Position numbers and translations under genes: made by a program | Notes under the pieces: model-generated | Databases searched by the model: none | The model's input: only the letters and a program-made list of their open reading frames with translations | What the model was told of the DNA's origin: nothing | Shown: piece by piece, positions 2 through 29,386 of the stretch | How the letters are laid out: every line of letters begins with the position of its first letter | Position numbering within the stretch: the stretch's first letter is position 1 | NCBI RefSeq assembly: GCF_016765695.1 | Contig: NZ_JAETGO010000017.1 | Span: 62,001-126,000 of the forward strand | DNA: 64,000 nucleotides | From: Sporosalibacterium faouarense | GTDB taxonomy: Bacteria; Bacillota; Clostridia; Tissierellales; VENL01 | Direction: 5' to 3'

Positions 2-1354
2 GCTATGGAACAACACTTAGCATTGTCGGCTGCATGGGCTGGAGGAAACAAAAAATTATTAGATAAATATCATGGAAGAATAATGGATATGGATACTTTA
101 GCTGCCTTTTATCCTTTCTTAGATGGTTCTATAAGCCATAAAAAAGGCTGTTACATTGGTCATAGAACTAAAGATGGCACTGCAGTATATAAATCCTTTA
201 CAGATACACCTGATGACCAGAACTTTATTGTAACAGGAAGAACTGGATGGGGTAAGTCAACAGAACTTAAAGCTTTGGTTGAATCAATGGAAAATCAAGG
301 AATGAAGGGATATATTTACGATGTTGATGGTGAGTATTATGAATTATGTCAGGAGTTAGGAGGACTATGGATAGACCTCACCCAGGGAAGTGGAAAATTC
401 ATTGATCCAACTTACATAGAGAATTCAATTTTTAATGAAATAGACCCAACAAACTTGAGTGAGACTGACTATAAAAAGGCTAAAGAAGCCGACGATGCAA
501 GATATTCAGAAGCTTCTCACAATACTTTAGGAGTTATCGGGTTATTAGTTGATAAATTCACTGCTAAGAAAAGAAATGCTGCTGCATATGCACTTTTAAA
601 AATGTGGGAAAATGCAGGAATTAAAGAAGAAGAACCAAGCACCTGGAGTACTAGGGAAGGTTTAGGAATTCATAAGTGGTATGAAATACTAAAGGAGCAT
701 GCTAATTCAGATGATGAAGATATTCTCCATAAAGAAGGAGCTAGATTACTTCATGAAGATTTATGGAATTACTTTGAAGGGGTTGATAAAAACTTATTTA
801 AAAATGCAATCTCTCCTGATTATATAAAGAATACTGAGTTAGTAGTATTTCATGTTGCTTCAACCATAGAAAACGCTTTGGATCAGCAAATTGGTGCTGC
901 CAAAATGGTAATGGCATCCCACATGGCCTGGGAGCAGATAAAAAGGGACAGGCTTAAAAAACAGAAGTTTAGCTTTTCAATATATGAAGAAGTTCAAAGA
1001 CTTATAAAGAATGATTATGCTGCCATGTCAATATATAGGGATACTACAACAGGAAGAAAGTTTAATCTCCAATGTATGATTGGTTTTAATGACCCATCAA
1101 TCCTCTTTCCTGATAATAAGGGATTATGGGACAATACAAAATACAAAATACTCTTTACACTAGAGAAAAACACAATAGAAGAGTTAGCTGATAATGGAGC
1201 TATGCCAAGGGAAGTAATAGACGAGTGGTTACAGCTCGAAAAGTATCAATTTATACTAGCTGAGAAAACTGAGAAAGGTAATGCATATGACATTTTAAGG
1301 GCAGAGCTTCCTGATAGTGAACTTAAGTTATCAAAGACCAGGGGACTTAATTAA
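2..1354 (+). CDS. VirB4/TraE-like conjugation ATPase, 5' end outside window
   Basis: C-terminal part of an ATPase that would power a type IV secretion (conjugation) channel at the inner face of the membrane. The reading frame is open through the left window edge, so the true start lies outside. Counting from the first in-window Met (position 5), a Walker A motif GRTGWGKS lies at residues 78-85, and an acidic Walker B-like strand (FSFSIYEEVQ) lies near 325-335. About 450 residues are visible; full VirB4/TraE proteins are usually 600-800. The FtsK-like gene downstream supports an integrative conjugative element, but no relaxase is visible. Family assignment is good; exact subfamily is uncertain. 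Confidence 0.8.
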   Translation, partial: AMEQHLALSAAWAGGNKKLLDKYHGRIMDMDTLAAFYPFLDGSISHKKGCYIGHRTKDGTAVYKSFTDTPDDQNFIVTGRTGWGKSTELKALVESMENQGMKGYIYDVDGEYYELCQELGGLWIDLTQGSGKFIDPTYIENSIFNEIDPTNLSETDYKKAKEADDARYSEASHNTLGVIGLLVDKFTAKKRNAAAYALLKMWENAGIKEEEPSTWSTREGLGIHKWYEILKEHANSDDEDILHKEGARLLHEDLWNYFEGVDKNLFKNAISPDYIKNTELVVFHVASTIENALDQQIGAAKMVMASHMAWEQIKRDRLKKQKFSFSIYEEVQRLIKNDYAAMSIYRDTTTGRKFNLQCMIGFNDPSILFPDNKGLWDNTKYKILFTLEKNTIEELADNGAMPREVIDEWLQLEKYQFILAEKTEKGNAYDILRAELPDSELKLSKTRGLN

Positions 1355-1395
1355 TAGAGATAATGAATTATTAAAAGGTTAATAAGATGTAAACA

Positions 1396-1434
1396 GGGTG
1401 TAATTAACACATTATTAATATACTAATTACACCC
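1396..1434. repeat. GGGTGTAATTA inverted repeat (operator or iteron)
   Basis: Perfect 11-base inverted repeat: GGGTGTAATTA at 1396-1406 and TAATTACACCC at 1424-1434, in the gap just before the 103-residue gene. The same half-sites return after that gene. There is no T-run, so it does not look like a terminator; it is better read as a protein-binding site. Confidence 0.6.
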
Positions 1435-1456
1435 GCAAAAGAAAAGGAGGACAAAT

Positions 1457-1768
1457 ATGTTAGAAAAAAAAGATGGAAATAGGGTGAAGTTAAAATTTAA
1501 TAGTTTTGAGGATACAAAGAATGAACTAAATGAAAGTATGACTTATAAATCAAATGAAAGTATGAATGAGCAATCTAGAGAAGAAGAACCGATTAATAAA
1601 GAAAGTATTGGAAGGCCTTATAAAAATGAAAAAGATAAAAGGGACAAGAGAGTATATTCATATTTAACTGAAGATGAAAAAGAAAAGTATTATAGATATT
1701 GTGCTTCTATTAGAAAGGATGCTTCAGATGATTTAAGAGAATATATATTAGGGTGTATTAACCAGTAG
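1457..1768 (+). CDS. small charged protein, possible ribbon-helix-helix DNA-binding protein
   Basis: Protein of 103 residues that I do not recognise with certainty. Its first half is polar and low-complexity (Asn, Glu and Ser rich). The last ~50 residues (from GRPYKNEKDK) are basic and end in a helix-turn-helix-like pattern, SYLTEDEKEKYYRYC then DASDDLREYIL, which resembles the C-terminal part of some CopG/ribbon-helix-helix plasmid proteins. The ATG follows a good AAAAGGAGG. It is flanked on both sides by GGGTGTAATTA palindromes, which would fit an autoregulator or partition/replication-type DNA binder. That role is inference. Confidence 0.5.
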   Translation: MLEKKDGNRVKLKFNSFEDTKNELNESMTYKSNESMNEQSREEEPINKESIGRPYKNEKDKRDKRVYSYLTEDEKEKYYRYCASIRKDASDDLREYILGCINQ

Positions 1769-1847
1769 GTATTAATTACACCCAAACAAGATATTAATTA
1801 TACCTTATTAAGGTGTAATTAATGATTAATAGATGTTATTTACACCC
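1751..1847. repeat. cluster of GGTGTAATTA half-sites
   Basis: Overlapping palindromes start inside the 3' end of the preceding gene. GGGTGTATTA (1751-1760) faces TAATTACACCC (1773-1783). TTAATTATACC (from about 1795) faces AGGTGTAATTAA (1811-1822). A further TTATTTACACCC lies at 1836-1847. Together with 1396-1434 this gives about six half-sites in 450 bases. Spacing is irregular, so this is not a CRISPR array. Confidence 0.6.
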
Positions 1848-1892
1848 AACTAAGGTGCTAAAAGGGTGCAATATAATAAAGGATGTGATTAA

Positions 1893-2177
1893 ATGGAAAC
1901 TAAATTAATCATAGCTTTAATAATAATTTTAATAGCAGTTATATTTGTTAAAGCTGTAAGCAAAGTCCCAAAGATAGTTTTTATGACTATCCGAGGGATT
2001 TCTTTAATATTTGGGATTATAGCAATATATAAAAATTGGGATATAGCTTATCCAGTAATAAAAGAATTTGGAAATGACGTAACTAGTAAAATTATAGAGA
2101 TTGGCAAGTTGGCATATTTTACTGTAATAAACAATGCAGATAAGGTCTTGTCAGAGATTCCAAATAAAATAAACTAA
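1893..2177 (+). CDS. small membrane protein of unknown function
   Basis: Protein of 94 residues with an N-terminal hydrophobic helix (about residues 4-20, LIIALIIILIAVIFV) and a second one (about 32-46, RGISLIFGIIAIY), followed by a mostly polar C-terminus. The ATG follows AAAGGATGTG. It ends 14 bases before the FtsK-like gene, so the two are probably co-transcribed. It may be a membrane partner of that translocase. I recognise no family. Confidence 0.5.
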   Translation: METKLIIALIIILIAVIFVKAVSKVPKIVFMTIRGISLIFGIIAIYKNWDIAYPVIKEFGNDVTSKIIEIGKLAYFTVINNADKVLSEIPNKIN

Positions 2178-2191
2178 GGGAAGGTGAGAAT

Positions 2192-4126
2192 ATGAAGAAA
2201 CAGAAGGACACAAAAGTCAGTAATGGTGGACTTATAGAAGAATTAATAGAAACAGTACTAAAGGTACTTGTAAATATAATTGTTTTCTCATTAGTGGCCA
2301 TAGTATCAGCTTTGGTTTATCTGAAGGTCGAAAAATTAAATATTTTAATACCTAGATATAATTCACTGGCCATAGATATTATCCAAGTAAGTGGGGTTTT
2401 AATAGGAATTTCACTCTTATTAATGAATATCAAACTTGTAGGAAAGGCATTACTTAAAGTTTTAAAGCAAATATTGAAGCTCATAAGAATCCTACCGGAG
2501 AAATTTATTAGAAGTATATATTACACCTTAAGAAAGAAAACAATCGAAGAACCTATAGGTGATGAGTTAAGGGAACCTACAGAAAAGGATAAAAAAACAC
2601 TAATGGAAAAATGTCCACCCCTGGTTCTATTAAATGAACCAAAAGACATTAATATGGGAAATAAGGATGAATTGAGAAACCTATTGTCTATGACATTTAA
2701 TAAATATGATCTTAATTTTGTAAGGATCAAGGAGGTTTTACCAGGTCCAACTATTACAAGATTTATTTTAGATATAGGTGAAGGGAAAGTATCAGAAATA
2801 ACAAAATATGAAAAGGAAATGGCCATGACTCTTGGGGTTAATTCAATATACATAAAACCTAGTGCTAAGGGACTAACTATTGAAGTACCAAATAGAAAAC
2901 GTTCTAAAGTATATCATAGGGAAGTACTAGAAAATTTTATGAAGCATAGAGATATAAAAGAACTTTTAGAGATTCCTATAGGAAAGACTGCAACTGGAGA
3001 GCTTCAGGTTCTAGATATTGCTAAATGTCCTCATCTTTTAATAGCAGGAGCCACAGGATCAGGGAAAAGTGTTTGTATAAATACAATATTAACAAGTATC
3101 TTATTTAAAGCTAGACCAAAGGATGTAAGGTTATTATTAATAGACCCTAAGATGGTTGAATTAAATGAATATAATGGAATCCCTCATTTACTAAATGATG
3201 TTATAACAGAACCTAAAAAGGCAGCCAAGGCTTTAGAGTGGGCTATTAAGGAAATGAACAGAAGATATCAAGTGTTTGCAAAGGCAAAGGTTAGAAATAT
3301 CAATAGATATAATAGTAAGCCAAACCTACCTAATATGCCTTTAATAGTAATAGTAATAGATGAGTTAGCAGATCTAATGCTTGTAGCAAAGGATGCTATT
3401 GAAGATAAAATCCAAAATCTTGGGCAAAAGGCAAGAGCGGCAGGAATACATTTAATAGTCGCAACTCAAAGACCTTCTGCAGATGTTATTACAGGAACCA
3501 TTAAAGCAAATATTACTGGGAGAATTGCTTTTTCGGTAGCTTCAAATGTTAATTCTAGAATAATACTAGATACAAGTGGAGCAGAAAAGTTACAGGGTAA
3601 TGGAGATGGTTATTTATTAACTACAGAAATGCCAATGCCAGTAAGATTCCAAGGTTCATTCATAGACGATGAAGAAGTAGAAAGAGTAATTAAATGGTGG
3701 AAGAATAGAAGGGGACAGAGGTCTTCAGATAATTTAGAATTTGATTTTGATGCACAAAAAGATATAAATGAAGCTTCAGAGTATCAGGAAGAACCAATAG
3801 ATAGAACAGAAGAAAAACAGAAAATCGAAAGCATTGAAAATACTAAGGAAGAGTATTCTGAAGCAGAGCTTCGAGTAAGGATATACATTAATGAAATAGC
3901 ATATCATTCTGATGAGGTAGAAATCACACTTCCTTCAACAGATGTGATGAGAGAAGAAATTGGTATAATGAAAGCAAATTTAATAAATATTATGAACAAG
4001 TTAGAGAAAGAAAAACTGATCGAGAAAAAAGGAGCAGGTCGTGGAGCTAGGACCTATTTGTTAATTCCACAAGAAAAAGCCTATGATTTTTTAGATAAAT
4101 ATTCTCCTAAATCAGTAAAAGAATAG
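2192..4126 (+). CDS. FtsK/SpoIIIE-type DNA translocase
   Basis: Protein of 644 residues, shorter than chromosomal FtsK/SpoIIIE (750-800). It has two N-terminal membrane helices (about residues 25-45 and 65-85), an FtsK alpha/beta motor with Walker A GATGSGKSV (around residue 288) and Walker B VIVIDELADLM (around residue 390), the ATQRPSADVITGTIKANI signature, and a C-terminal winged-helix resembling FtsK gamma (VMREEIGIMKANLINIM, then GRGARTYLLI). It pumps double-stranded DNA using ATP. Beside a VirB4-like gene it may act as the coupling or DNA-transfer motor of the element, although a gamma domain is more typical of chromosome translocases. The start follows AAGGGAAGGTGAG. Confidence 0.85.
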   Translation: MKKQKDTKVSNGGLIEELIETVLKVLVNIIVFSLVAIVSALVYLKVEKLNILIPRYNSLAIDIIQVSGVLIGISLLLMNIKLVGKALLKVLKQILKLIRILPEKFIRSIYYTLRKKTIEEPIGDELREPTEKDKKTLMEKCPPLVLLNEPKDINMGNKDELRNLLSMTFNKYDLNFVRIKEVLPGPTITRFILDIGEGKVSEITKYEKEMAMTLGVNSIYIKPSAKGLTIEVPNRKRSKVYHREVLENFMKHRDIKELLEIPIGKTATGELQVLDIAKCPHLLIAGATGSGKSVCINTILTSILFKARPKDVRLLLIDPKMVELNEYNGIPHLLNDVITEPKKAAKALEWAIKEMNRRYQVFAKAKVRNINRYNSKPNLPNMPLIVIVIDELADLMLVAKDAIEDKIQNLGQKARAAGIHLIVATQRPSADVITGTIKANITGRIAFSVASNVNSRIILDTSGAEKLQGNGDGYLLTTEMPMPVRFQGSFIDDEEVERVIKWWKNRRGQRSSDNLEFDFDAQKDINEASEYQEEPIDRTEEKQKIESIENTKEEYSEAELRVRIYINEIAYHSDEVEITLPSTDVMREEIGIMKANLINIMNKLEKEKLIEKKGAGRGARTYLLIPQEKAYDFLDKYSPKSVKE

Positions 4127-10775: not shown

Positions 10776-12129
10776 TTTTAACTTTAAGCCATATTTTGAT
10801 ACACCAGAAACTCTAGCTAATAAGTTTCTTGATGTTTACTTTAATGATACACAGCCCTCTTATCCTATAAATCCATTTATGATATTGGAAGACTTAAATA
10901 TAGTTTTTCAATTTAGAGATTTTAAGGAGTTAGAGGGCATTTATATTGTACCTGAAGACGAGGATGACATTCCAGTAGTAGGCATAAATAATAAGAGACC
11001 AATTTCAAGGCAGAGGTTTACAGCTGCACACGAAATATGTCATCATATCAAAGATAGGAATGTAGCTCGAATATGTCCTATTGGAAAAAAAGATGAAATA
11101 GAGAAATTTGCTGATAAATTCGCTAGTGAGTTGTTAATGCCCAAATTTGAATTAGAAGCACAGGCAATTAAATTTGAGAAAAATGGATATGTTGAATTTG
11201 AAGATGTCATAATAATTTCAGATTATTTTGGAGTAAGTTTTGAATCATGTGTATTTGCTCTTGCATACAAATTAAGGAAAATAGATGGTGACATTAGAGC
11301 CTCTGAATTAAAAAAACGTATAAGAAAATTCAAACCCGTTAAAAAAAGAAAGAAATTAGGATTGAAAAACTATGATATAAATCTATTAAAGAATGTTATA
11401 GAATCGTATACATATTTTTTAGATACTAGGAGTCCAGCAGTATGGTACAAGTTTAAAAACAACTTTGTATATAATGAAAACAAACTAGAAGGTGTAAATA
11501 TTGATTATCCAGATATTGCAGAGATAGTTACTGACCTGAGAGTAAATAATACACAAAGTGATTACTGTACATCTGAATATAAAGATATCATTGAGGTTGT
11601 TGGACATGCTTCCCTGTATGATTACCTCATAAATACGGAAGAGAATATATCAGTATACAAAATTCTAAAATTACATAAGTTATTATACCAGTATGCTCCA
11701 TATTCTGAATATGGTGGCAGTACTCGTAAGACCAATAATTATGTATCTAGTTCAAAATTTGAGACAGTTGATTTTAATGAAATTGGAAATAGGATGTTTG
11801 AGTTAGATCAGGAGCTTAATCAATTAATAAAAAACAAAGATGAAATCAGTTTATGTGATTATATAGAAATGTGTGTGATGATTCATTATAAAATTACTAT
11901 TATTCACCCTTTTCATGATGGAAATGGAAGAGTATCTAGAGCAATGTTAAATTGGCTCTTAAAGTTGAAAAACCTGCCCCCGATATATTTGAGAGCAGAC
12001 AAGAAAGAAAGATATTATGATGCTTTAATGACAGCTGATACAACTAATGATTACGACCCATTATATGAGGTGTTTTATAGGGCTATACTATCGTCATTAG
12101 TTGAGTTAAACACCAAGTTTGAACTCTAG
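10765..12129 (+). CDS. ImmA/IrrE metallopeptidase fused to a Fic domain
   Basis: Protein of 454 residues combining two enzymatic folds. Residues ~1-170 are an ImmA/IrrE (COG2856) zinc peptidase with H89-E-x-x-H93 (AAHEICHHI) and ASELLMPKFEL. A basic linker (~180-200) leads to a Fic fold with the complete catalytic motif HPFHDGNGRVSR at 381-392. Fic enzymes move AMP or other phosphate groups onto protein hydroxyls. NENKLEGV at 237-244 resembles the Fic inhibitory helix, but with Glu where Ser/Thr is usual, four residues before the key Glu. Translationally coupled to the XRE gene. A toxin or stress-sensing role is inferred. Confidence 0.85.
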   Translation: MIDSFNFKPYFDTPETLANKFLDVYFNDTQPSYPINPFMILEDLNIVFQFRDFKELEGIYIVPEDEDDIPVVGINNKRPISRQRFTAAHEICHHIKDRNVARICPIGKKDEIEKFADKFASELLMPKFELEAQAIKFEKNGYVEFEDVIIISDYFGVSFESCVFALAYKLRKIDGDIRASELKKRIRKFKPVKKRKKLGLKNYDINLLKNVIESYTYFLDTRSPAVWYKFKNNFVYNENKLEGVNIDYPDIAEIVTDLRVNNTQSDYCTSEYKDIIEVVGHASLYDYLINTEENISVYKILKLHKLLYQYAPYSEYGGSTRKTNNYVSSSKFETVDFNEIGNRMFELDQELNQLIKNKDEISLCDYIEMCVMIHYKITIIHPFHDGNGRVSRAMLNWLLKLKNLPPIYLRADKKERYYDALMTADTTNDYDPLYEVFYRAILSSLVELNTKFEL

Positions 12130-21015: not shown

Positions 21016-21161
21016 AATTTATCTCACCTGCCTATGCTTCAATGTATGCGGATATGCAAAAAAAGGTGAATAAAAAATTACCAATGAAGTTTACATAATA
21101 TCGTGTTATAATAATACTATCCCCTTTACATATACATATATAAATGAAAGGGGGAGTGTAT

Positions 21162-21992
21162 ATGAAATTAAAAAGAAAAGCTAGAAAAAGTATTGTATTT
21201 GTTTTAGTTATAATCATGACTTTAACAGTATTTAGTTTATTTAATTTAAATATAAAAAGCAAGTTTAGCCAGTTAGTAAAAGCTTTTGAAAAGACTAGAA
21301 TCTTACACAATGTAAAAGAATATGATAAGCTGGAAACTGAGAGGTTTGTTATTAGGTACGAGGATGATAAGAAAAATGCAGAACTGACAGCGAAAATACT
21401 AAGTAAATATTATGATCAGGTATGTTCGATGTTTGATTACTATCCACAAGAGAAAGTCGTAATAATCATTTATAATAATGGAGAAGACTTAGTAGATAAT
21501 ACTAGATTAAAGAAAGACACTCCGCCATTAGGAGTATATTATAGTGGTACAATTAATATACTATCTCCTAAAGTTTGGTTGTCTCAAAATGAATCATATG
21601 AAGAAGCCTTTGAAAAAAATGGACCTGTAGTACATGAATTTGCTCATCAAGTAGTAGATGATATTACAAATGGTAACTATCCGATATGGCTTACAGAAGG
21701 GATTGCCTTATATGTAGAATATAAAACTACAGGGTTTGAATGGGGTAGTGAAATCAAGAATGGTAATGACATCACTGTTGAAGATTTAACTAATAAATTC
21801 TATGATATTGATACTGGGCTATCCTATAGAAAGTCATTTGAAGTCGTTTCCAGTATTTCAGAAAATTGGGGATTTGACAAGTTAAGGCTATTGTTAGATA
21901 CTTTAGGAGATGGTAATAGTATGGATAAATCGACACAGAAAGTTTTGAAAGTAAATCTTATGGATATAGATAAAACACTTTTAAAAGAGTGA
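21162..21992 (+). CDS. membrane-anchored peptidase MA family (gluzincin-like) metalloprotease
   Basis: Protein of 276 residues from the ATG at 21162, which has GAAAGGGGGAG ahead; the ATG at 21144 overlaps that site. An N-terminal membrane anchor (about 10-28, KSIVFVLVIIMTLTVFSLF) is followed by an extracellular domain with the zinc motif VVHEFAHQVV and a downstream LTEGIALYVEY that supplies the third ligand Glu. This is the peptidase MA pattern often seen in clostridial surface or sporulation-linked proteins. The substrate is unknown. It precedes walR by 170 bases but is separated by a strong terminator. Confidence 0.8.
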   Translation: MKLKRKARKSIVFVLVIIMTLTVFSLFNLNIKSKFSQLVKAFEKTRILHNVKEYDKLETERFVIRYEDDKKNAELTAKILSKYYDQVCSMFDYYPQEKVVIIIYNNGEDLVDNTRLKKDTPPLGVYYSGTINILSPKVWLSQNESYEEAFEKNGPVVHEFAHQVVDDITNGNYPIWLTEGIALYVEYKTTGFEWGSEIKNGNDITVEDLTNKFYDIDTGLSYRKSFEVVSSISENWGFDKLRLLLDTLGDGNSMDKSTQKVLKVNLMDIDKTLLKE

Positions 21993-22165: not shown

Positions 22166-22858
22166 TTGAGTAAAAAAATACTAGTTGTTGATGATGAGAA
22201 GCCAATTGCTGAGATTTTAAAATTTAATCTTGAAAAGGAAGGATATGAAATTGACCTTGCATTTGACGGAGAAGAGGCTATTAACAAAGCTTTTGATATA
22301 AAACCTGATATAATTTTATTAGATGTAATGCTACCAAAAAAAGATGGATTTCAGGTTTTGAAAGAGGTTAGGGGTAAGCTACAGATACCAGTATTGATGT
22401 TGACTGCTAAGGAGGAAGAAGTAGATAAGGTGTTGGGATTAGAACTAGGTGCTGATGATTATATTACTAAGCCATTTAGTATGAGAGAACTTATTGCGAG
22501 AGTAAAAGCAAATCTAAGAAGGTCAGAAATTGTGTCAGATAATTCAACTGACGGGGACTTGGTAATATCAGGTGACCTAATAATTGATATTAATAAATAT
22601 GAAGTTAGAAGAAATGATGAAATTATTAATTTAACTTTGAGAGAGTTTGAATTATTAAGGTTCTTAGCCACTAAGGCTGAACAAGTATTTTCAAGGGAAA
22701 AATTACTTGAAGAAGTATGGGGATATGAATACTACGGAGACATTAGAACGGTTGATGTAACTGTGAGGAGATTAAGAGAGAAAATTGAAGATGACTCTAA
22801 AGGCTATAAATACGTCCTTACTAAAAGAGGTGTAGGATACTACTTCAGGAGGGCATAA
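22166..22858 (+). CDS. walR: WalR (YycF) response regulator
   Basis: OmpR-family regulator of 230 residues that controls peptidoglycan hydrolases and cell-wall turnover. Receiver domain: VVDDEKPIAEIL, phospho-acceptor in ILLDVMLPKKDGF (about residue 53), LTAKEEE and DDYITKPFSMREL. Winged helix: LTLREFELLRFLATKAEQVFSREKLLEEVWG, then DIRTVDVTVRRLREKIE. Translation starts at TTG (22166) behind AATGGGGTGAG. It ends 2 bases before walK. Confidence 0.95.
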   Translation: MSKKILVVDDEKPIAEILKFNLEKEGYEIDLAFDGEEAINKAFDIKPDIILLDVMLPKKDGFQVLKEVRGKLQIPVLMLTAKEEEVDKVLGLELGADDYITKPFSMRELIARVKANLRRSEIVSDNSTDGDLVISGDLIIDINKYEVRRNDEIINLTLREFELLRFLATKAEQVFSREKLLEEVWGYEYYGDIRTVDVTVRRLREKIEDDSKGYKYVLTKRGVGYYFRRA

Positions 22859-22860
22859 AA

Positions 22861-24660
22861 ATGTTTAAAAGTATAAGATGGAAATTTATTACTGTATACT
22901 TTCTGTTAGTTTTTATAGCTATGGTTATAGTAGGAGTATTCATTGTTGAAAAATTCTATGAGAATCAAGAAAATCAAATAACAAAGAGAATGGAAAATAC
23001 AGTAAATAATCTATTGGTAATTAATAGTGGCTTAGCTAAAGATGACTGGAAGGCATCAGAAGATGAAATAAGAAGATCTATTATTAGTAATGGTTCATTT
23101 CAAGGAAATTTATATATTATTAATAATTCAGAAGCACCTGAGATAATTGCGTCATATTCTAGTAGAAGGTTCAACCAAGAAGATTTAGTGGGAAAGAGTC
23201 CGTTTCAAGATAATACTCTTTTAAATCAGGATATTATACTTGAGGCACTAGAGGAAGGCAAGATATCTTATAAAACATTTGAAGAAGATAAGATTAAACA
23301 TTTAGCTTATCCTGTGGAAAATGAGTTTGGAAAAGTAAAGGGTATAATTTATGTTACAGCTGACTTAGAAAATATGTATGAAACTTTAGATGATGCACAG
23401 GAAATCCTAACTAAAGCGACCCTTTTAGCGTTGTTTATAACCATATTTCTAGGTTTTTTTATAGCTAATAGCATAACTGGACCTATTAAGGATGTTACAG
23501 TAAAAGCTGCTAGGATGGCCAAAGGAGACTTTGATCAGGTTGTTGAAGTAAAATCAAATGATGAGATTGGACAATTAGCTAGCATGTTTAACTACTTAAC
23601 TCTTAAGCTTAAAAGAACAATGTCAGAGGTATATAGAGAAAAAAGTAAACTGGATACTATATTTACTTATATGGCTGATGGAGTTATCGCAGTAAACATA
23701 AATGGAACTATTATCCATGTAAATCCAAATGCTTTAAAGATGCTCGGCATTACTGAGGAGGAAGTAGAACATAAGACTTTTGATGAGATTTTTGTAAAGT
23801 ATAATCCAAAATTAACATTATCATATATAAAAGAAAACAATGATTGGAAGGGAAGTTACCTATTAGATATGGACCCTTCTGTTTATAGAGCCAAATATGC
23901 ATCTTTTAGAAATAAAAACAATGAAATTGGTGGTCTAATAATAGTTTTACAAGATGTAACAGAGCAACAAAAGCTAGAAAATATGAGAAAAGAGTTTGTT
24001 GCCAATGTTTCTCATGAATTAAAGACCCCAATAACAACTATTAAAAGTTATACTGAAACTTTACTCGATGGAGGTATGGAAAGTCCTGAGCTTTCAAACA
24101 AATTTCTGGATGTTATAGACAGTGAATGTGATAGAATGGCAAGGATTGTTAGAGATTTACTTCAGCTATCTAATTTAGATTATAAACAAACTAAGTGGAA
24201 TAAAAGCTCTCTTTATATGGAGAACTTATTAAGGGATGCTTACTTTAAAATGAAGATAGCGGCTCAAGAGAAGAATCAAAAAATTACTCTTGATATTCAA
24301 GGTGATATTCCTCAAATAGCAGGTGACAAAGATAGGCTAGAACAAGTGGTTTTAAATGTAATAAGCAATGCGATAAAGTATACACCAGATGATGGTGAAA
24401 TAGAGATAATAGCAAAAAAACAAGAAAATCATGTTATTGTAACGGTGAAAGATAATGGCTTGGGTATACCTGAAGAAGATATAGATAGAATTTTTGAAAG
24501 GTTCTATAGAGTTGACAAAGCAAGGTCAAGAGCTCTAGGTGGGACTGGATTAGGACTTTCTATTGCAAAACAGATAGTAGTCTTTCATGGCGGAGACATT
24601 AAAATTAGAAGTGAATACAACGTAGGAACAGAAGTAGACATCATTTTACCAATACAGTAA
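22861..24660 (+). CDS. walK: WalK (YycG) sensor histidine kinase
   Basis: Kinase of 599 residues with the full WalK layout: TM1 (~10-30), extracellular domain (~30-180), TM2 (~183-203), HAMP (GPIKDVTVKAARMAKGDF), PAS (~260-360, MADGVIAVNINGTIIHVN), HisKA with FVANVSHELKTPITT, and HATPase with NVISNAIKYTPDDGEI, VKDNGLGIPEEDIDRIF and GGTGLGLSIAKQIV. It senses cell-wall state (lipid II or hydrolase products in other species) and phosphorylates WalR. Confidence 0.95.
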   Translation: MFKSIRWKFITVYFLLVFIAMVIVGVFIVEKFYENQENQITKRMENTVNNLLVINSGLAKDDWKASEDEIRRSIISNGSFQGNLYIINNSEAPEIIASYSSRRFNQEDLVGKSPFQDNTLLNQDIILEALEEGKISYKTFEEDKIKHLAYPVENEFGKVKGIIYVTADLENMYETLDDAQEILTKATLLALFITIFLGFFIANSITGPIKDVTVKAARMAKGDFDQVVEVKSNDEIGQLASMFNYLTLKLKRTMSEVYREKSKLDTIFTYMADGVIAVNINGTIIHVNPNALKMLGITEEEVEHKTFDEIFVKYNPKLTLSYIKENNDWKGSYLLDMDPSVYRAKYASFRNKNNEIGGLIIVLQDVTEQQKLENMRKEFVANVSHELKTPITTIKSYTETLLDGGMESPELSNKFLDVIDSECDRMARIVRDLLQLSNLDYKQTKWNKSSLYMENLLRDAYFKMKIAAQEKNQKITLDIQGDIPQIAGDKDRLEQVVLNVISNAIKYTPDDGEIEIIAKKQENHVIVTVKDNGLGIPEEDIDRIFERFYRVDKARSRALGGTGLGLSIAKQIVVFHGGDIKIRSEYNVGTEVDIILPIQ

Positions 24661-24665
24661 TTCTA

Positions 24666-24720
24666 TGTAATTCAATTTTAATTCCGTTGTAATATGTTTG
24701 TAATAATACTATTATATAAT
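24666..24720 (+). promoter_or_regulatory. two tandem WalR boxes and a promoter
   Basis: Box 1 is TGTAAT-N5-TTTAAT (24666-24682) and box 2 is TGTAAT-N5-TGTAAT (24688-24704). They start 22 bases apart, about two helical turns. This fits the known WalR consensus of two TGTWAH hexamers 5 bases apart. A TATAAT at 24715-24720 follows, so the boxes cover the -35 region. An internal, WalR-controlled promoter for the downstream genes is likely. Confidence 0.72.
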
Positions 24721-24760
24721 TAGGCTGTAGAGATAGATATTATATTGAGGAGGACATATA

Positions 24761-25519
24761 ATGTTTAAAAGAATCATATCAGCCACAATAGTGCTTGCGA
24801 TAATAGGTACTACTGGAACTGTTTCATATACAAGTAGTGGAAAAATTTCATCTAATGAAAAAATAGCGAAAAAGATAAATAGTAGTAAAATTCACAAATT
24901 CTATGAAAGTAATATTGAAGTGTTTCAACCAAAAGATAATTTAGTTACTTCTCATAAGACCGTTTTACTTTCTGGTAAAGCACCTGAAGAGAGTAAAGTG
25001 GTTGTGGAAGTATATTCAACGCCAAATTTATCACTGAAAAATTTAACAAAAAATAATATAGCTTTAAATAATGATAAAGCATTAAAAGAGTTTTATGATA
25101 AACAACAAGAGTTCTTTTTGCCCCCTAGTACTAAAGAAATCGAAGTAGGGTCTTTTGGGATTTTTGTGCAAGAATTAGAACTGAAGCTTGGTTTGAACAA
25201 AATAAACGTATACATAAAAGGCTCAGAAGATATGGGAAAAGTAAGATTTATTTATGTAAATGAAGAAACCAATGCAGAAGATTTAATTAATGATATTGAT
25301 AGGATAAATTTTTTAAAGGTATTTAAAAAGTTTTTTTTAGAGAGCAATAAAATAAATGAAGAAGATACTGAAAATGTTGAAGATAAAGAAGATATTGAAA
25401 ATGTAGAACCTGAAGATGTAGAACCTGAAAATATAGAAAGTATAAAAGAAGAAACTAAAAATATAGAAGAGAAAGAGTCATCAATAGATACTAACCAGGA
25501 TACGTTTCAGAATGATTAG
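24761..25519 (+). CDS. secreted protein with Ig-like domain and acidic tail, in the wal operon
   Basis: Protein of 252 residues, not recognised by name. An N-terminal signal sequence or anchor (FKRIISATIVLAIIGTTGTVS) is followed by a beta-rich domain (~50-170) that resembles a bacterial Ig-like fold (VTSHKTVLLSGKAPEESKVVVEVYS, then LKLGLNKINVYIKG). The last ~65 residues are acidic and repetitive (EDTENVEDKEDIENVEPEDVEPE broken into short Glu-Asn-Val units). It replaces nothing in the classical yyc order but sits between walK and yycH behind two WalR boxes. A cell-wall sensing or WalK-modulating role is an inference from position. Confidence 0.65.
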   Translation: MFKRIISATIVLAIIGTTGTVSYTSSGKISSNEKIAKKINSSKIHKFYESNIEVFQPKDNLVTSHKTVLLSGKAPEESKVVVEVYSTPNLSLKNLTKNNIALNNDKALKEFYDKQQEFFLPPSTKEIEVGSFGIFVQELELKLGLNKINVYIKGSEDMGKVRFIYVNEETNAEDLINDIDRINFLKVFKKFFLESNKINEEDTENVEDKEDIENVEPEDVEPENIESIKEETKNIEEKESSIDTNQDTFQND

Positions 25520-25554
25520 TGAAGTAATAACGCAGTATACTGGAGTTGGAGCCT

Positions 25555-27042
25555 ATGTATAGGGAAAGAGTAAAGACATTATTTTTATTAATATTAATTA
25601 TGGTTAGTATTCTTTTAGCCAATGAGATTTGGATTGAAATTCCAAATTCTTTTTTTCCTTCATTTGGAAGTGAGGTAGAAGAGGAGAACACGGAATATTT
25701 GCTTGCTGATATAGTTAAACCAGAGAAGATTTTATACAATTTTGACACAGGACATACTGTATTCTATTCGGATAAAGAATTTGGGTTTTGGGATATAGGT
25801 AGGGATGTTCTAGCTAAGACATTAGAAAATTCGCAATTATCTGTTGGATTAATATCTGTTGAAGAATATGATGACTATAAGAGTAAAACGTCATTAGATT
25901 ACTATTTTCCAGAGAATATTCATATTCATTTACTAGGAAAGATAATTGAAGAAAATATACCGAGTGCTGCATATGAGAAAATTGAATACGTGAATAATGT
26001 TCATATTGATTTAGGAACATCTCCATTTATTGTATTAAGTGATGAAAAGACACATTTAAAGATTAGCTCTGAAGATATTGATGTTAGAGTAATAAGAAAT
26101 GCTTTAAATAATATAGATAAAGAGGATCAAACTAAGTTTGTTTCTATGAAGACTTCTTTGAACATTAATAATAACGAATACTTACCAATAAATATGAAAT
26201 ATAATATGCCAGTGGTAAAGGTAAAAAAAGAGATTGAAGTAAAGAGTAAGAATCTCGAAAGTATCGTAGAAAAGTTTTTTAGTAGGAATCCTAACTATAT
26301 AAGAGGATATGAAGAAGATAATGGAGCAAAGATTTATTTTTATAATCAACAAATATTAAAGATTCATAGCAATGGATTATTAGAGTATCATAACTCCATA
26401 GCAGAACCGATAGAAAATAGAGAATTATATAAAAGTTTAAATACTGCAGTTAATTTTGTATCTAATCATGTTGGATGGCCTGAGGGGTCATTTTTAAAGG
26501 AAATTGAGCCAATAGAATGGGAAGAAAATAAAGGATTTAGATTTAAATTCACCTATAAGATAAATGGCGGACAGGTAGTCATTGATGAAGAAAAAAGTGT
26601 TGGTTTAGAAGAGCCAATAGAGATAGAAGTCTATAATAATGATGTTAAAACATACAAAAGGTATGTTAAATTAGTTGAAAATGTTGAAAACAATGAGGTA
26701 GCTTCACAGGAATCACTTAATACAAGAAAGCTATCTGTTTTAGAAATATTAATGAAGAAGGAAAATTCAGATATAATTAGAGAGAAATATATTGAATATA
26801 ATGAATTAGACCCATCGGAAATAGATGAAGAAGAATTAAACAATAGAATTTTAGAGGCAATTAACAACATTTATATTGGATATTATTACATTGGAGATAA
26901 TTCAGTATGGATTTATGGAGAAAGATTACAGCCCAGATGGGTAATAGATATTGATGGTTTAAAGTTATCCTTTGAAATTAACGAAGAGAGCAATAAAATT
27001 GTAGAAGATAATGAGAAGGTAGATGAGGTGATATTCAAATAA
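25555..27042 (+). CDS. yycH: YycH-type WalK regulatory protein
   Basis: Protein of 495 residues with one N-terminal membrane helix (about 8-22, LFLLILIMVSILLANE) and a large extracellular region, the layout of YycH, which with YycI modulates WalK from outside the membrane. I chose the ATG at 25555, with GGAG 9 bases ahead; the TTG at 25546 is too close to that site. Sequence conservation in this family is low, so the call leans on length, topology and position between walK and yycI. Confidence 0.8.
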   Translation: MYRERVKTLFLLILIMVSILLANEIWIEIPNSFFPSFGSEVEEENTEYLLADIVKPEKILYNFDTGHTVFYSDKEFGFWDIGRDVLAKTLENSQLSVGLISVEEYDDYKSKTSLDYYFPENIHIHLLGKIIEENIPSAAYEKIEYVNNVHIDLGTSPFIVLSDEKTHLKISSEDIDVRVIRNALNNIDKEDQTKFVSMKTSLNINNNEYLPINMKYNMPVVKVKKEIEVKSKNLESIVEKFFSRNPNYIRGYEEDNGAKIYFYNQQILKIHSNGLLEYHNSIAEPIENRELYKSLNTAVNFVSNHVGWPEGSFLKEIEPIEWEENKGFRFKFTYKINGGQVVIDEEKSVGLEEPIEIEVYNNDVKTYKRYVKLVENVENNEVASQESLNTRKLSVLEILMKKENSDIIREKYIEYNELDPSEIDEEELNNRILEAINNIYIGYYYIGDNSVWIYGERLQPRWVIDIDGLKLSFEINEESNKIVEDNEKVDEVIFK

Positions 27043-27064: not shown

Positions 27065-27913
27065 ATGGATTGGTCAAAAGCAAAAAATATTCTTATTGTG
27101 GCTTTTATAATTACAAATCTAATACTAGCTTATGTTCTCATAGATAATAGAGCTAGCGAAACTACTATGGATGAAAAGTTTATAAATAATGTTAAAGAAA
27201 AGCTTTTAGTAAAGGATATTCATATTTCGCCAGATATTCAGATACCTTTAGGCAAACCATCCCTCTCAAAATTAAATGTAGAATATCAAGTATATAGTCC
27301 AACTGAGATAGCTGAGGCTTTTTTAGGAGATTATAACTATAATACTAGTATAACTAAGGATAGTTATGTATATAAGAAGAACAATCAAGTTTTAACAATA
27401 TCCCATGATAATAAAAAAATTGTATATGTTAACAATAATGATGAAAGTGATATTGTGACATCGCCTGATTTAAGTGAGAAAAGAGTCCATTTTTTAATAG
27501 AGGTATTTTTAAATGAAAAGGGATTTGCAGATGATGACTTTAAGCTTATAAACTATAATTTTGATAAAATGCCATATACACTAGAGTATGTTAAGGTGTA
27601 TAAAGGAATATATGTTGAAAAGACTTGGATGAAAATTGAAATTGATAAATCAGGAGTAAGAAAATTTGAAAGAATGTGGATTGATATAGATGGTGTAGAT
27701 ACAAAGGTATCTATAAATTCCGCGCCAAATGCTCTGCTTACTTTATTATCTAAAGAAGATATATCAGAAAAAACAATTTCAGATATGAGTTTATGCTACT
27801 ATCTTGATTCTGAGGAAAAGGATAATTTGGATTCTGAAAAAATTATAGCTGGTCAAGCAACTCCAGCTTGGAGAATTGAATTTTCTGATGGAACGAAGGA
27901 ATTTCTAAGATAA
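27065..27913 (+). CDS. yycI: YycI-type WalK regulatory protein
   Basis: Protein of 282 residues beginning MDWSKAKNILIVAFIITNLILAYVL, a hallmark start of YycI proteins: short cytosolic DWSKAK segment, one membrane helix, then an extracellular domain. It would form a complex with YycH and restrain or tune WalK. It starts 22 bases after yycH and ends at a terminator. Confidence 0.88.
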   Translation: MDWSKAKNILIVAFIITNLILAYVLIDNRASETTMDEKFINNVKEKLLVKDIHISPDIQIPLGKPSLSKLNVEYQVYSPTEIAEAFLGDYNYNTSITKDSYVYKKNNQVLTISHDNKKIVYVNNNDESDIVTSPDLSEKRVHFLIEVFLNEKGFADDDFKLINYNFDKMPYTLEYVKVYKGIYVEKTWMKIEIDKSGVRKFERMWIDIDGVDTKVSINSAPNALLTLLSKEDISEKTISDMSLCYYLDSEEKDNLDSEKIIAGQATPAWRIEFSDGTKEFLR

Positions 27914-28129: not shown

Positions 28130-29386
28130 ATGGATAAATTCATTATAGAAGGCGGAGCTAAGCTTAAGGGGAAAGTTAATGTAAGTGGTTTTAAGAATGC
28201 AGCATTGCCAATAATACCAGCAACTTTATTGGCAGGAGATAAGTGTATTATAGAGAATCTTCCTTTAATAAAGGATGTTAATATTTATAAAGAAATTATG
28301 GCTAGTTTAGGTGCAGACGTTAGTCTAGACGATAAAGGTACAATGGAAATAGATACAAGCAAAATTAAAGAGTGTATAGCTACAAGTGATTTAGCTGGTA
28401 GAATTAGGGGCTCATATTATCTTTTAGGAGCTGCTCTTGGGAGATTTAAGGAGGCTGAGGTTTCATATCCAGGTGGTTGTAATATAGGAAATAGACCAAT
28501 AGATCAACATATAAAGGGATTTGAGGCGCTAGGAGCTAAAGTAGATATTGACCATGGAATCATTAAATGTAAAGCAGAGAAGCTAATAGGAACGAAGATA
28601 TACTTAGATGTTGTAAGTGTTGGGGCCACTATTAATATAATGTTGGCAGCTGTTCTGGCTGAAGGTAAGACAGTTATTGAAAATGCAGCTAAGGAACCAC
28701 ATATAGTGGATGTAGCAAACTTTTTAAATGCTATGGGAGCTGATATTAGAGGAGCAGGAACTGATGTAATTAGAATAAATGGCGTAGAAGAACTTAAGGG
28801 TTGCACATATAGCATAATACCTGACCAAATTGAAGCTGGAACTTATATGATTGCAGCAGCTATTACAGGTGGCGACGTGATAATTGATAATGTTATACCA
28901 ACGCATTTAGAGTCTGTGACTGCTAAGCTTAAGGAAATGGATATAATAGTAGAAGAGTATGGAGACTCTATAAGAGTCAGTGCTCCTAATCCTTTAAAGA
29001 GTATAAATGTAAAAACCTTACCTCATCCAGGGTTTCCTACAGATCTTCAGCAACCTATGAGTGTACTTTTATCCCATGCAGAAGGTACTAGTATAGTGAC
29101 TGAAAGTGTATCTGAGAGCAGATTTAAATATATAGATGAGCTGAAAAGAATGGGAGCAAATATTAAAGTTGATGGAAGGACTGCTGTCATTGAGGGAATA
29201 GGAAAACTAAGTGGTGCAAAGGTATCTGCTACAGATTTAAGAGCAGGAGCTGCGCTAATAGTAGCTGGATTAGCGGCTGATGGTACCACAGAAGTAGAGA
29301 ATGCTCAACATATAGATAGAGGATATGAAAAAATAGATAATAAGCTTCTGAATTTAGGAGCTAAGATTAAAAAAGTTCAAGAATAA
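28130..29386 (+). CDS. murA: UDP-N-acetylglucosamine 1-carboxyvinyltransferase
   Basis: Protein of 418 residues, normal length for MurA, which adds enolpyruvate from PEP to UDP-GlcNAc in the first step of peptidoglycan synthesis. Visible are [23 protein letters not shown], the catalytic Cys in [15 protein letters not shown], and [17 protein letters not shown] near the C-terminus. SGFKNAA has Phe where Ala or Ser is usual. The ATG at 28130 fits the family N-terminus but has a weak site; the strong AGAGGGG lies 33 bases up, in front of an in-frame GTG (28097) that is closed by TAG after six codons. Confidence 0.95.

Follow-up and report, generated by a model that had tools for sequence, protein, structure and literature searches.

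The wal locus of Sporosalibacterium faouarense carries, between the genes of the sensor kinase WalK and the modulator YycH, a gene for a predicted exported protein with one Ig-like domain, here called X, which is preceded by a promoter array of four WalR-type half-sites and a TATAAT element. Judged by sequence comparison, X is a previously undescribed exported-protein gene that is widespread in the order and in the class Clostridia, and phosphorylated WalR (WalR~P) probably activates the array promoter of X, yycH and yycI, which would set the level of the WalK modulators. Among the open-access full-text matches listed, none dealt with X or with a WalR site downstream of walK. The window analysed here is the whole stretch of 64,000 nucleotides in which the locus lies, and its features are collected in Table 1.

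Table 1. Features of the wal locus and of the promoter array before X, in positions of the window.
Feature	Position	Strand	Basis or remark
Peptidase-MA-like exported protein (PF13485)	21144-21992		Upstream of walR
walR (yycF), response regulator	22166..22858	+	NCBIfam resp_reg_YycF, E 3.7e-101, 337.2 bits, cut-off 340
walK (yycG), sensor kinase	22861..24660	+	Pfam HAMP, PAS, HisKA and ATPase domains
Half-site 1, TGTAAT	24666..24671	+	Columns conserved in relatives
Half-site 2, TTTAAT	24677..24682	+	YTTAA in relatives
Half-site 3, TGTAAT, then A	24688..24693	+
Half-site 4, TGTAAT, then A	24699..24704	+	Roughly at the position of a -35 element
-10 element, TATAAT	24715..24720	+	Exactly 10 bp after half-site 4
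Ribosome-binding site, AGGAGG	24748..24753	+
Start codon of X, ATG	24761	+
Gene X (252 aa), for a predicted exported protein with a single Ig-like domain	24761..25519	+
Residues 1-24 of X, putative signal peptide	24761..24832	+	By eye, from sequence and alignment
Predicted Ig-like core of X, residues 52-166	24914..25258	+	AlphaFold2, structure comparison, weak PF09136 match
Acidic C-terminal tail of X, lineage-specific	25358..25516	+
yycH (walH)	25546..27042	+	TTG start listed; alternative ATG at 25555
yycI (walI)	27065..27913	+
murA	28130-29386		Between yycI and yycJ; named by resemblance
yycJ	29420		Named by resemblance and order
HtrA-type protease (htrA)	30237		Named by resemblance and order

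The window shows the walRKHI-type order walR, walK, yycH, yycI, yycJ, with X and murA as insertions. WalR and WalK give strong NCBIfam matches (for WalK, HK_WalK with E 9.3e-169 and 562.8 bits, cut-off 725), yet both stay under the equivalog cut-offs. Neither YycH nor YycI of the window matches a Pfam family itself, and sequence searches of solved structures with the YycH and YycI profiles gave no credible match. Among their aligned relatives, 6 of 16 YycH proteins match PF07435 (best 1.7e-14) and 12 of 17 YycI proteins match PF09648 (best 3.1e-24), each at E <= 0.1, which bears out the placing of yycH and yycI after X in a preliminary description of this DNA. The PF13485 peptidase-MA-like gene recurs before walR in named relatives (for example L035-L038, L040, L046, L048, L050, L052, L053, L061, L062 and L064). 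The position of murA between yycI and yycJ is shared by several relatives (L035, L046, L048, L050, L053, L058, L059, L061 and L062) and not by certain others.

Read directly from the sequence, the gap of 100 bases between walK and X holds the four half-sites, a 10-bp gap and TATAAT. The half-sites follow one another in exact 11-bp steps, which amounts to two 17-bp boxes 22 bp apart; the two WalR-type boxes 22 bases apart before a TATAAT that had been described earlier are thus confirmed, and resolve into four half-sites with an 11-bp period. The proximal box (24688-24704) is a perfect copy of the Bacillus subtilis WalR consensus TGTWAH-N5-TGTWAH, as quoted in PMC9210968, and the distal box (24666-24682) departs from it by one mismatch (TTTAAT). 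The array also fits the VicR refinement, having A at position 7 of half-sites, for which PMC4168254 gives the Streptococcus mutans consensus TGTWAHA-N4-TGTWAHA. No consensus -35 element lies at the usual distance from the TATAAT of the array promoter. A consensus scan returned a weak sigma-70 pair, TTGTAA-17-TATTAT, at 24687-24715 (9/12), and this pair we count against activation by WalR. Perfect copies of TGTWAH-N5-TGTWAH number 2 in the 64-kb window against 1.06 expected; a lone WalR box is therefore at chance level here, and conservation in relatives was used as the test. The other perfect copy lies at 1388-1404 (TGTAAACAGGGTGTAAT) and is expected by chance. The array stands above chance because both it and its 10-bp distance to TATAAT are conserved in relatives.

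For scoring, gaps between walK and X were anchored on their best match to TGTAAY-N5-TGTAAY-N10-TATAAT (18 positions), which yielded 76 distinct segments from the order and the class. The match is complete (18/18) in 68 segments and reaches 17 positions in four, 16 in two, 15 in one (L077) and 10 in one (L092), the last two being mis-anchored; L092 has its own box before X with 1 mismatch. Outside the anchor, conservation extends to TGTAA in the half-site at -22 (T 95%, G 95%, T 100%, A 85%, A 99%) and to YTTAA in that at -11; in 75 segments, half-site 3 is directly followed by A in 84% and half-site 4 in 100%. Conservation is poor over much of the length of the spacers, and TATAAT is near-invariant. 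Both strands of 548,026 bases from 86 wal loci contain 74 exact array matches, each before X, counts that do not represent independent events, since the locus sequences are related, and that include duplicate genomes (L014/L037, L017/L045, L022/L038, L024/L042). Of these matches 73 were tagged as X promoters and the remaining one (L094) likewise precedes X; the one-mismatch sites of L089 and L092, tagged 'other', are promoters of X as well. Run over the same 548,026 bases, the reversed pattern had no match with up to one mismatch and 6 with two. Genus g23 (L077, L202), where X is present and the array degenerate, and L095, where 3 mismatches are the fewest of any match near X, count against activation by WalR. 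Of 28 regions upstream of walR, 27 were valid, and a box was found in 0 of these 27 relatives; L041 was left out as its locus starts inside walR.

Across whole genomes, the exact array occurs once in the 4.12 Mb of S. faouarense, at X, and in the eight genomes scanned it is present at X in 8/8, plus one copy elsewhere. At <=2 mismatches the eight genomes hold 90 array matches against 62 of the reversed pattern, and S. faouarense holds 9 against 7, so that no wider regulon is visible in its own genome; a mis-spaced control in nine genomes gave 69 matches against 71 reversed. We read 38 of about 95 listed sites away from X and 29 of the 69 control sites (L179 left unscored). In these nine genomes, 20 of the 38 sites and 6 of the 29 controls lie outside a long ORF, the former set being richer in 0-1-mismatch sites than the mis-spaced control, and intergenic sites precede an exported-like protein in 10/38 against 1/29 (p 0.018), one of the ten frames being doubtful (L119, 71 aa). 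Near matches precede polysaccharide deacetylase, S-layer homology (SLH), phosphodiester glycosidase and LytR-CpsA-Psr genes, and two further ones precede response regulators; those before exported or envelope genes lend modest support to WalR. In G536, a putative Clostridioides genome picked on 97 CW_binding_2 candidates, 17 array matches stand against 6 reversed, and the two best of them lie before genes for a GH129 lipoprotein and for a response regulator, neither of which could be tied to the published WalR regulon. The small excess in S. faouarense and the result for G536 count against WalR. A site at L111 (about 1501-1533; C21:2302-2334 in the genome of S. faouarense) reads TGTCAC-N5-TGTCAC-N10-TATAAT before a small exported protein, which is the geometry of the X array with a PhoB/CpxR-like letter change; a paralogous regulator perhaps uses the same promoter layout there.

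Box and X are also absent together. A WalK search of 30 genomes, most of them picked for an absent or weak X-profile match, returned 21 loci, with nine genomes giving no match at E <= 1e-100. Six of the 21 loci carry a profile-confirmed X, five of them with the box at 0-1 mismatch and the sixth (L202) with a degenerate box of 3 mismatches, and in the 15 loci without X after walK the box is found in none (0/15, with 5 or more mismatches). At 14 of these 15, YycH (profile-confirmed in 14/14) starts at most about 25 bases from the walK stop; at the remaining one, L193 of genome G088, a nagB-like gene follows walK. The association of box and X (5/6 vs 0/15) has a Fisher p of 2.9e-4, with related loci treated as independent, and of 1.8e-5 if L202 is counted as boxed. 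Detached copies of box-X-yycH-yycI occur in two draft genomes, for which mis-assembly is possible. In G088 the copy lies at L204 (C67) 1299-4101, on another contig than walK and behind an unrelated gene, and its box has one mismatch; in G611 it lies at L207 (C33) on the minus strand, behind an unrelated 604-aa exported protein, with a box (L089) of one mismatch and no walK in the 12 kb upstream held by the contig. The separation from walK in two genomes points to a separate transcription unit, which would most simply be box-X-yycH-yycI.

A search with the single protein X matched 68 of 249 order genomes at E <= 0.01. At E <= 0.001, a profile of 25 X sequences matched 71 of the 249, a few of these matches being short and weak (e.g. 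G009, G169, G081), and 87 in a class-level sample of 391 genomes, several again short and weak. X is thus no local peculiarity. The preliminary description, which had called the protein unusual, had proposed looking for the gene between walK and yycH in relatives, where it was indeed found in 30/30 order-level genomes fetched, the 30 best of 68 (33 loci, three of them repeats). In the class loci L069-L096, walK lies upstream of X in 25/28 (tblastn) and a YycH-profile match follows X in 28/28; an extra gene stands between walK and X in L092, and L094 and L095 have no assignable gene upstream of X. The named-scan loci L037-L063 gave an X-profile match in 25/27, and in the two without X, L060 and L063 (Peptoniphilus, Tissierellia MAG), yycH starts at the walK stop. 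Carriers of X include Caloranaerobacter azorensis, Tissierella simiarum, Schnuerera, Anaerosolibacter, Thermotalea, Anaerovirgula, Tepidibacter, Peptoclostridium and Alkaliphilus. G015 and G017 (L185, L187) have X with an exact box, yet were missed by the order-wide profile search, and the X family is thus wider than these tallies.

The protein itself is predicted, from alignment and modelling, to consist of a signal peptide and one Ig-like domain. Its N-terminal hydrophobic signal ends in (G/S)Y(A/S/T) in many members, and no lipobox was seen by eye in the alignment; within the Ig-like domain L141 and G144 are invariant, and P57, G72, G130, G133, N146 and K147 nearly so. The AlphaFold2 model has a mean pLDDT of 70.6 and a pTM of 0.52, with low confidence in linker and tail and pLDDT block means of 85-95 over residues 61-90 and 121-170. 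Structure comparison (VIA-align) returned Ig-, Fn3- and macroglobulin-like matches (best Z 8.0); 1ug9, glucodextranase domain B, is among them with Z 7.5, these scores are of a size that common arrangements reach, and no match stands out. A sequence search of solved structures with the X profile gave no credible match. Against PF09136, 12 of 25 X proteins match at E <= 0.1 (best 3.9e-6), and the X of the window, at 16.4 bits with a cut-off of 27, is not assigned to that family. X resembles glucodextranase domain B (PF09136) in its predicted Ig-like sandwich and in weak profile similarity, but has no attached enzyme and stays under the Pfam cut-off. The hydrophobic N-terminus and the AlphaFold2 core support what had been claimed of an extra gene inside the wal operon with an exported, Ig-like product. 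As for the acidic repetitive tail also claimed, the D/E-rich end is present in the protein of the window but lies outside what is conserved: among 76 X proteins, with a median length of 173 aa, five have a D/E content of 28% or more over their final 60 residues, and the tail is a local addition. The idea of X as a third member of the YycH/YycI group was rejected, neither PF07435 nor PF09648 being among the 13 families matched by 25 X proteins at E <= 0.1. No feature of X pointing to WalK was found.

Several known systems invite comparison. CpxP of the Escherichia coli Cpx system is a regulon-encoded exported inhibitor of its own kinase, and differs from X in fold and phylum. The saePQ genes lie behind a SaeR-driven promoter. 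In saePQRS of Staphylococcus aureus, the auxiliary envelope proteins SaeP and SaeQ act back on the kinase, in what the cited part of PMC8774646 describes as a negative feedback mechanism; we compare only how the two systems work and claim no sequence kinship. The Clostridioides difficile operon walA-walR-walK-truA2 also encodes a lineage-specific exported protein proposed as a WalK modulator; WalA, encoded first in its operon, is a lipoprotein for which a beta-propeller is predicted (PMC9210968), whereas X is a predicted signal-peptide Ig-like protein encoded after walK, behind its own box. Overexpression of walR in C. difficile did not induce the native operon, which counts against a reading by autoregulation, and the same portion of PMC9210968 holds that neither this operon nor wal operons elsewhere are autoregulated. 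The walK and walH genes of S. aureus overlap by 8 bp, and no WalR site was found before the operon (PMC4801191, section cited); PMC8774646 is inconsistent on this walRKHI operon within the parts cited, the text having it apparently not autoregulated and Table 1 listing it as 'auto'. The wal operon of B. subtilis is called not under auto-regulatory control in the discussion cited from PMC7299342, where a shift of the set point via WalK-WalH-WalI levels is considered unlikely for this reason, and where WalRK is described as essential in most Firmicutes and as a drug-target candidate. The locus of S. faouarense shares with the walRKHI(J) operons of these Bacilli walR-walK, the membrane modulators yycH and yycI, and yycJ, and differs from them in the box, the promoter and the extra gene between walK and yycH.

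WalK is known to be modulated by YycH and YycI, which act as inhibitors in B. subtilis. In the circuit that we propose, two WalR dimers would occupy the four half-sites, all on the same side of the DNA helix, and the proximal dimer, at the -35 position and 10 bp from TATAAT, would recruit sigma-A polymerase. WalK activity would then lead to higher X, YycH and YycI outside the membrane; because YycH and YycI inhibit WalK in B. subtilis, the loop would most likely be a negative feedback that adjusts the set point of WalRK. X would most likely serve as a third extracytoplasmic modulator, binding WalK, YycH/YycI or the wall. WalR binding to the array is likely, and we infer WalR as the binder, activation in preference to repression, the sign of the feedback and the binding target of X. 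The fullest form of this proposal, an autoregulated Wal system of Clostridia in which X, YycH and YycI form a WalR~P-driven feedback module and X is a ligand or co-inhibitor of WalK, is put forward tentatively, as quite possible but falling somewhat short of probable. Since no box precedes walR in 27 relatives, walRK itself need not be autoregulated.

Boxes of the PhoB/OmpR family are alike, which we count against the identification of WalR, and another regulator of that family (PhoP in the first place, or an orphan) might bind the array, whose 10-bp gap to the -10 element resembles a PhoB-type promoter as its geometry is generally known. PMC4168254 remarks that the consensus sequences of PhoB and WalR are similar. 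We nevertheless regard such a regulator as improbable, given that nearly every locus has the WalR gene beside the box and that the pst promoter of S. faouarense has TTAACA repeats (at -105, -94 and -83 before pstS, in 11-bp steps) which differ from the TGTAAT repeats of X on the coding strand; moreover, the 16 kb around pst show no surplus of TGTNAY boxes with <=1 mismatch (3 against 5.5 expected). The pst promoter (L134, C80, about 11880-11925, minus strand) combines three TTAACA with AAAACA as a PhoP-type box of four half-sites. Repression of the X promoter by WalR, or a block to read-through from walRK, is conceivable in so far as WalR can repress, as at iseA of B. subtilis (PMC7299342, in the part cited), but the promoter, with no consensus -35 and a rigid 10-bp gap to a near-invariant TATAAT, is built as for an activator site, and we consider this reading unlikely. 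That the repeats are AT-rich chance matches before an ordinary promoter is hardly credible: a lone WalR box would turn up by chance about once in a window of this size, but the array is conserved across families of the class, is absent jointly with X, and in 548 kb of wal loci matches exactly at X alone.

A more serious competitor accepts that WalR drives X-yycH-yycI and holds X to be a wall-associated Ig-like protein, structural or a modulator of wall hydrolases, outside signalling, and thus just a further WalR target whose place in the operon is incidental. The single Ig-like domain, with no catalytic or sensor family found, is compatible with such a role, as are the weak similarity to glucodextranase domain B, an accessory domain in a carbohydrate enzyme, and the wall genes that follow other near matches of the box. 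It is made less probable by the pairing of X with yycH, which is seen in all 28 class loci and holds where walK is not adjacent (L089, L092 and G088), and by the joint absence of box and X while yycH stays; we see it as possible, but less likely than not.

If WalR~P does activate the array promoter, modulator levels would follow Wal output, contrary to the argument made for B. subtilis in the cited part of PMC7299342, and the array would break the rule of no autoregulation for the modulators only. By shifting modulator levels, a promoter of this kind would be able to move the set point of WalRK in Clostridia. The array is a strongly conserved candidate WalR site for this class, for which PMC9210968, in the portion cited, relied on consensus prediction, and X would be a new accessory protein of the Wal system that is directly testable.
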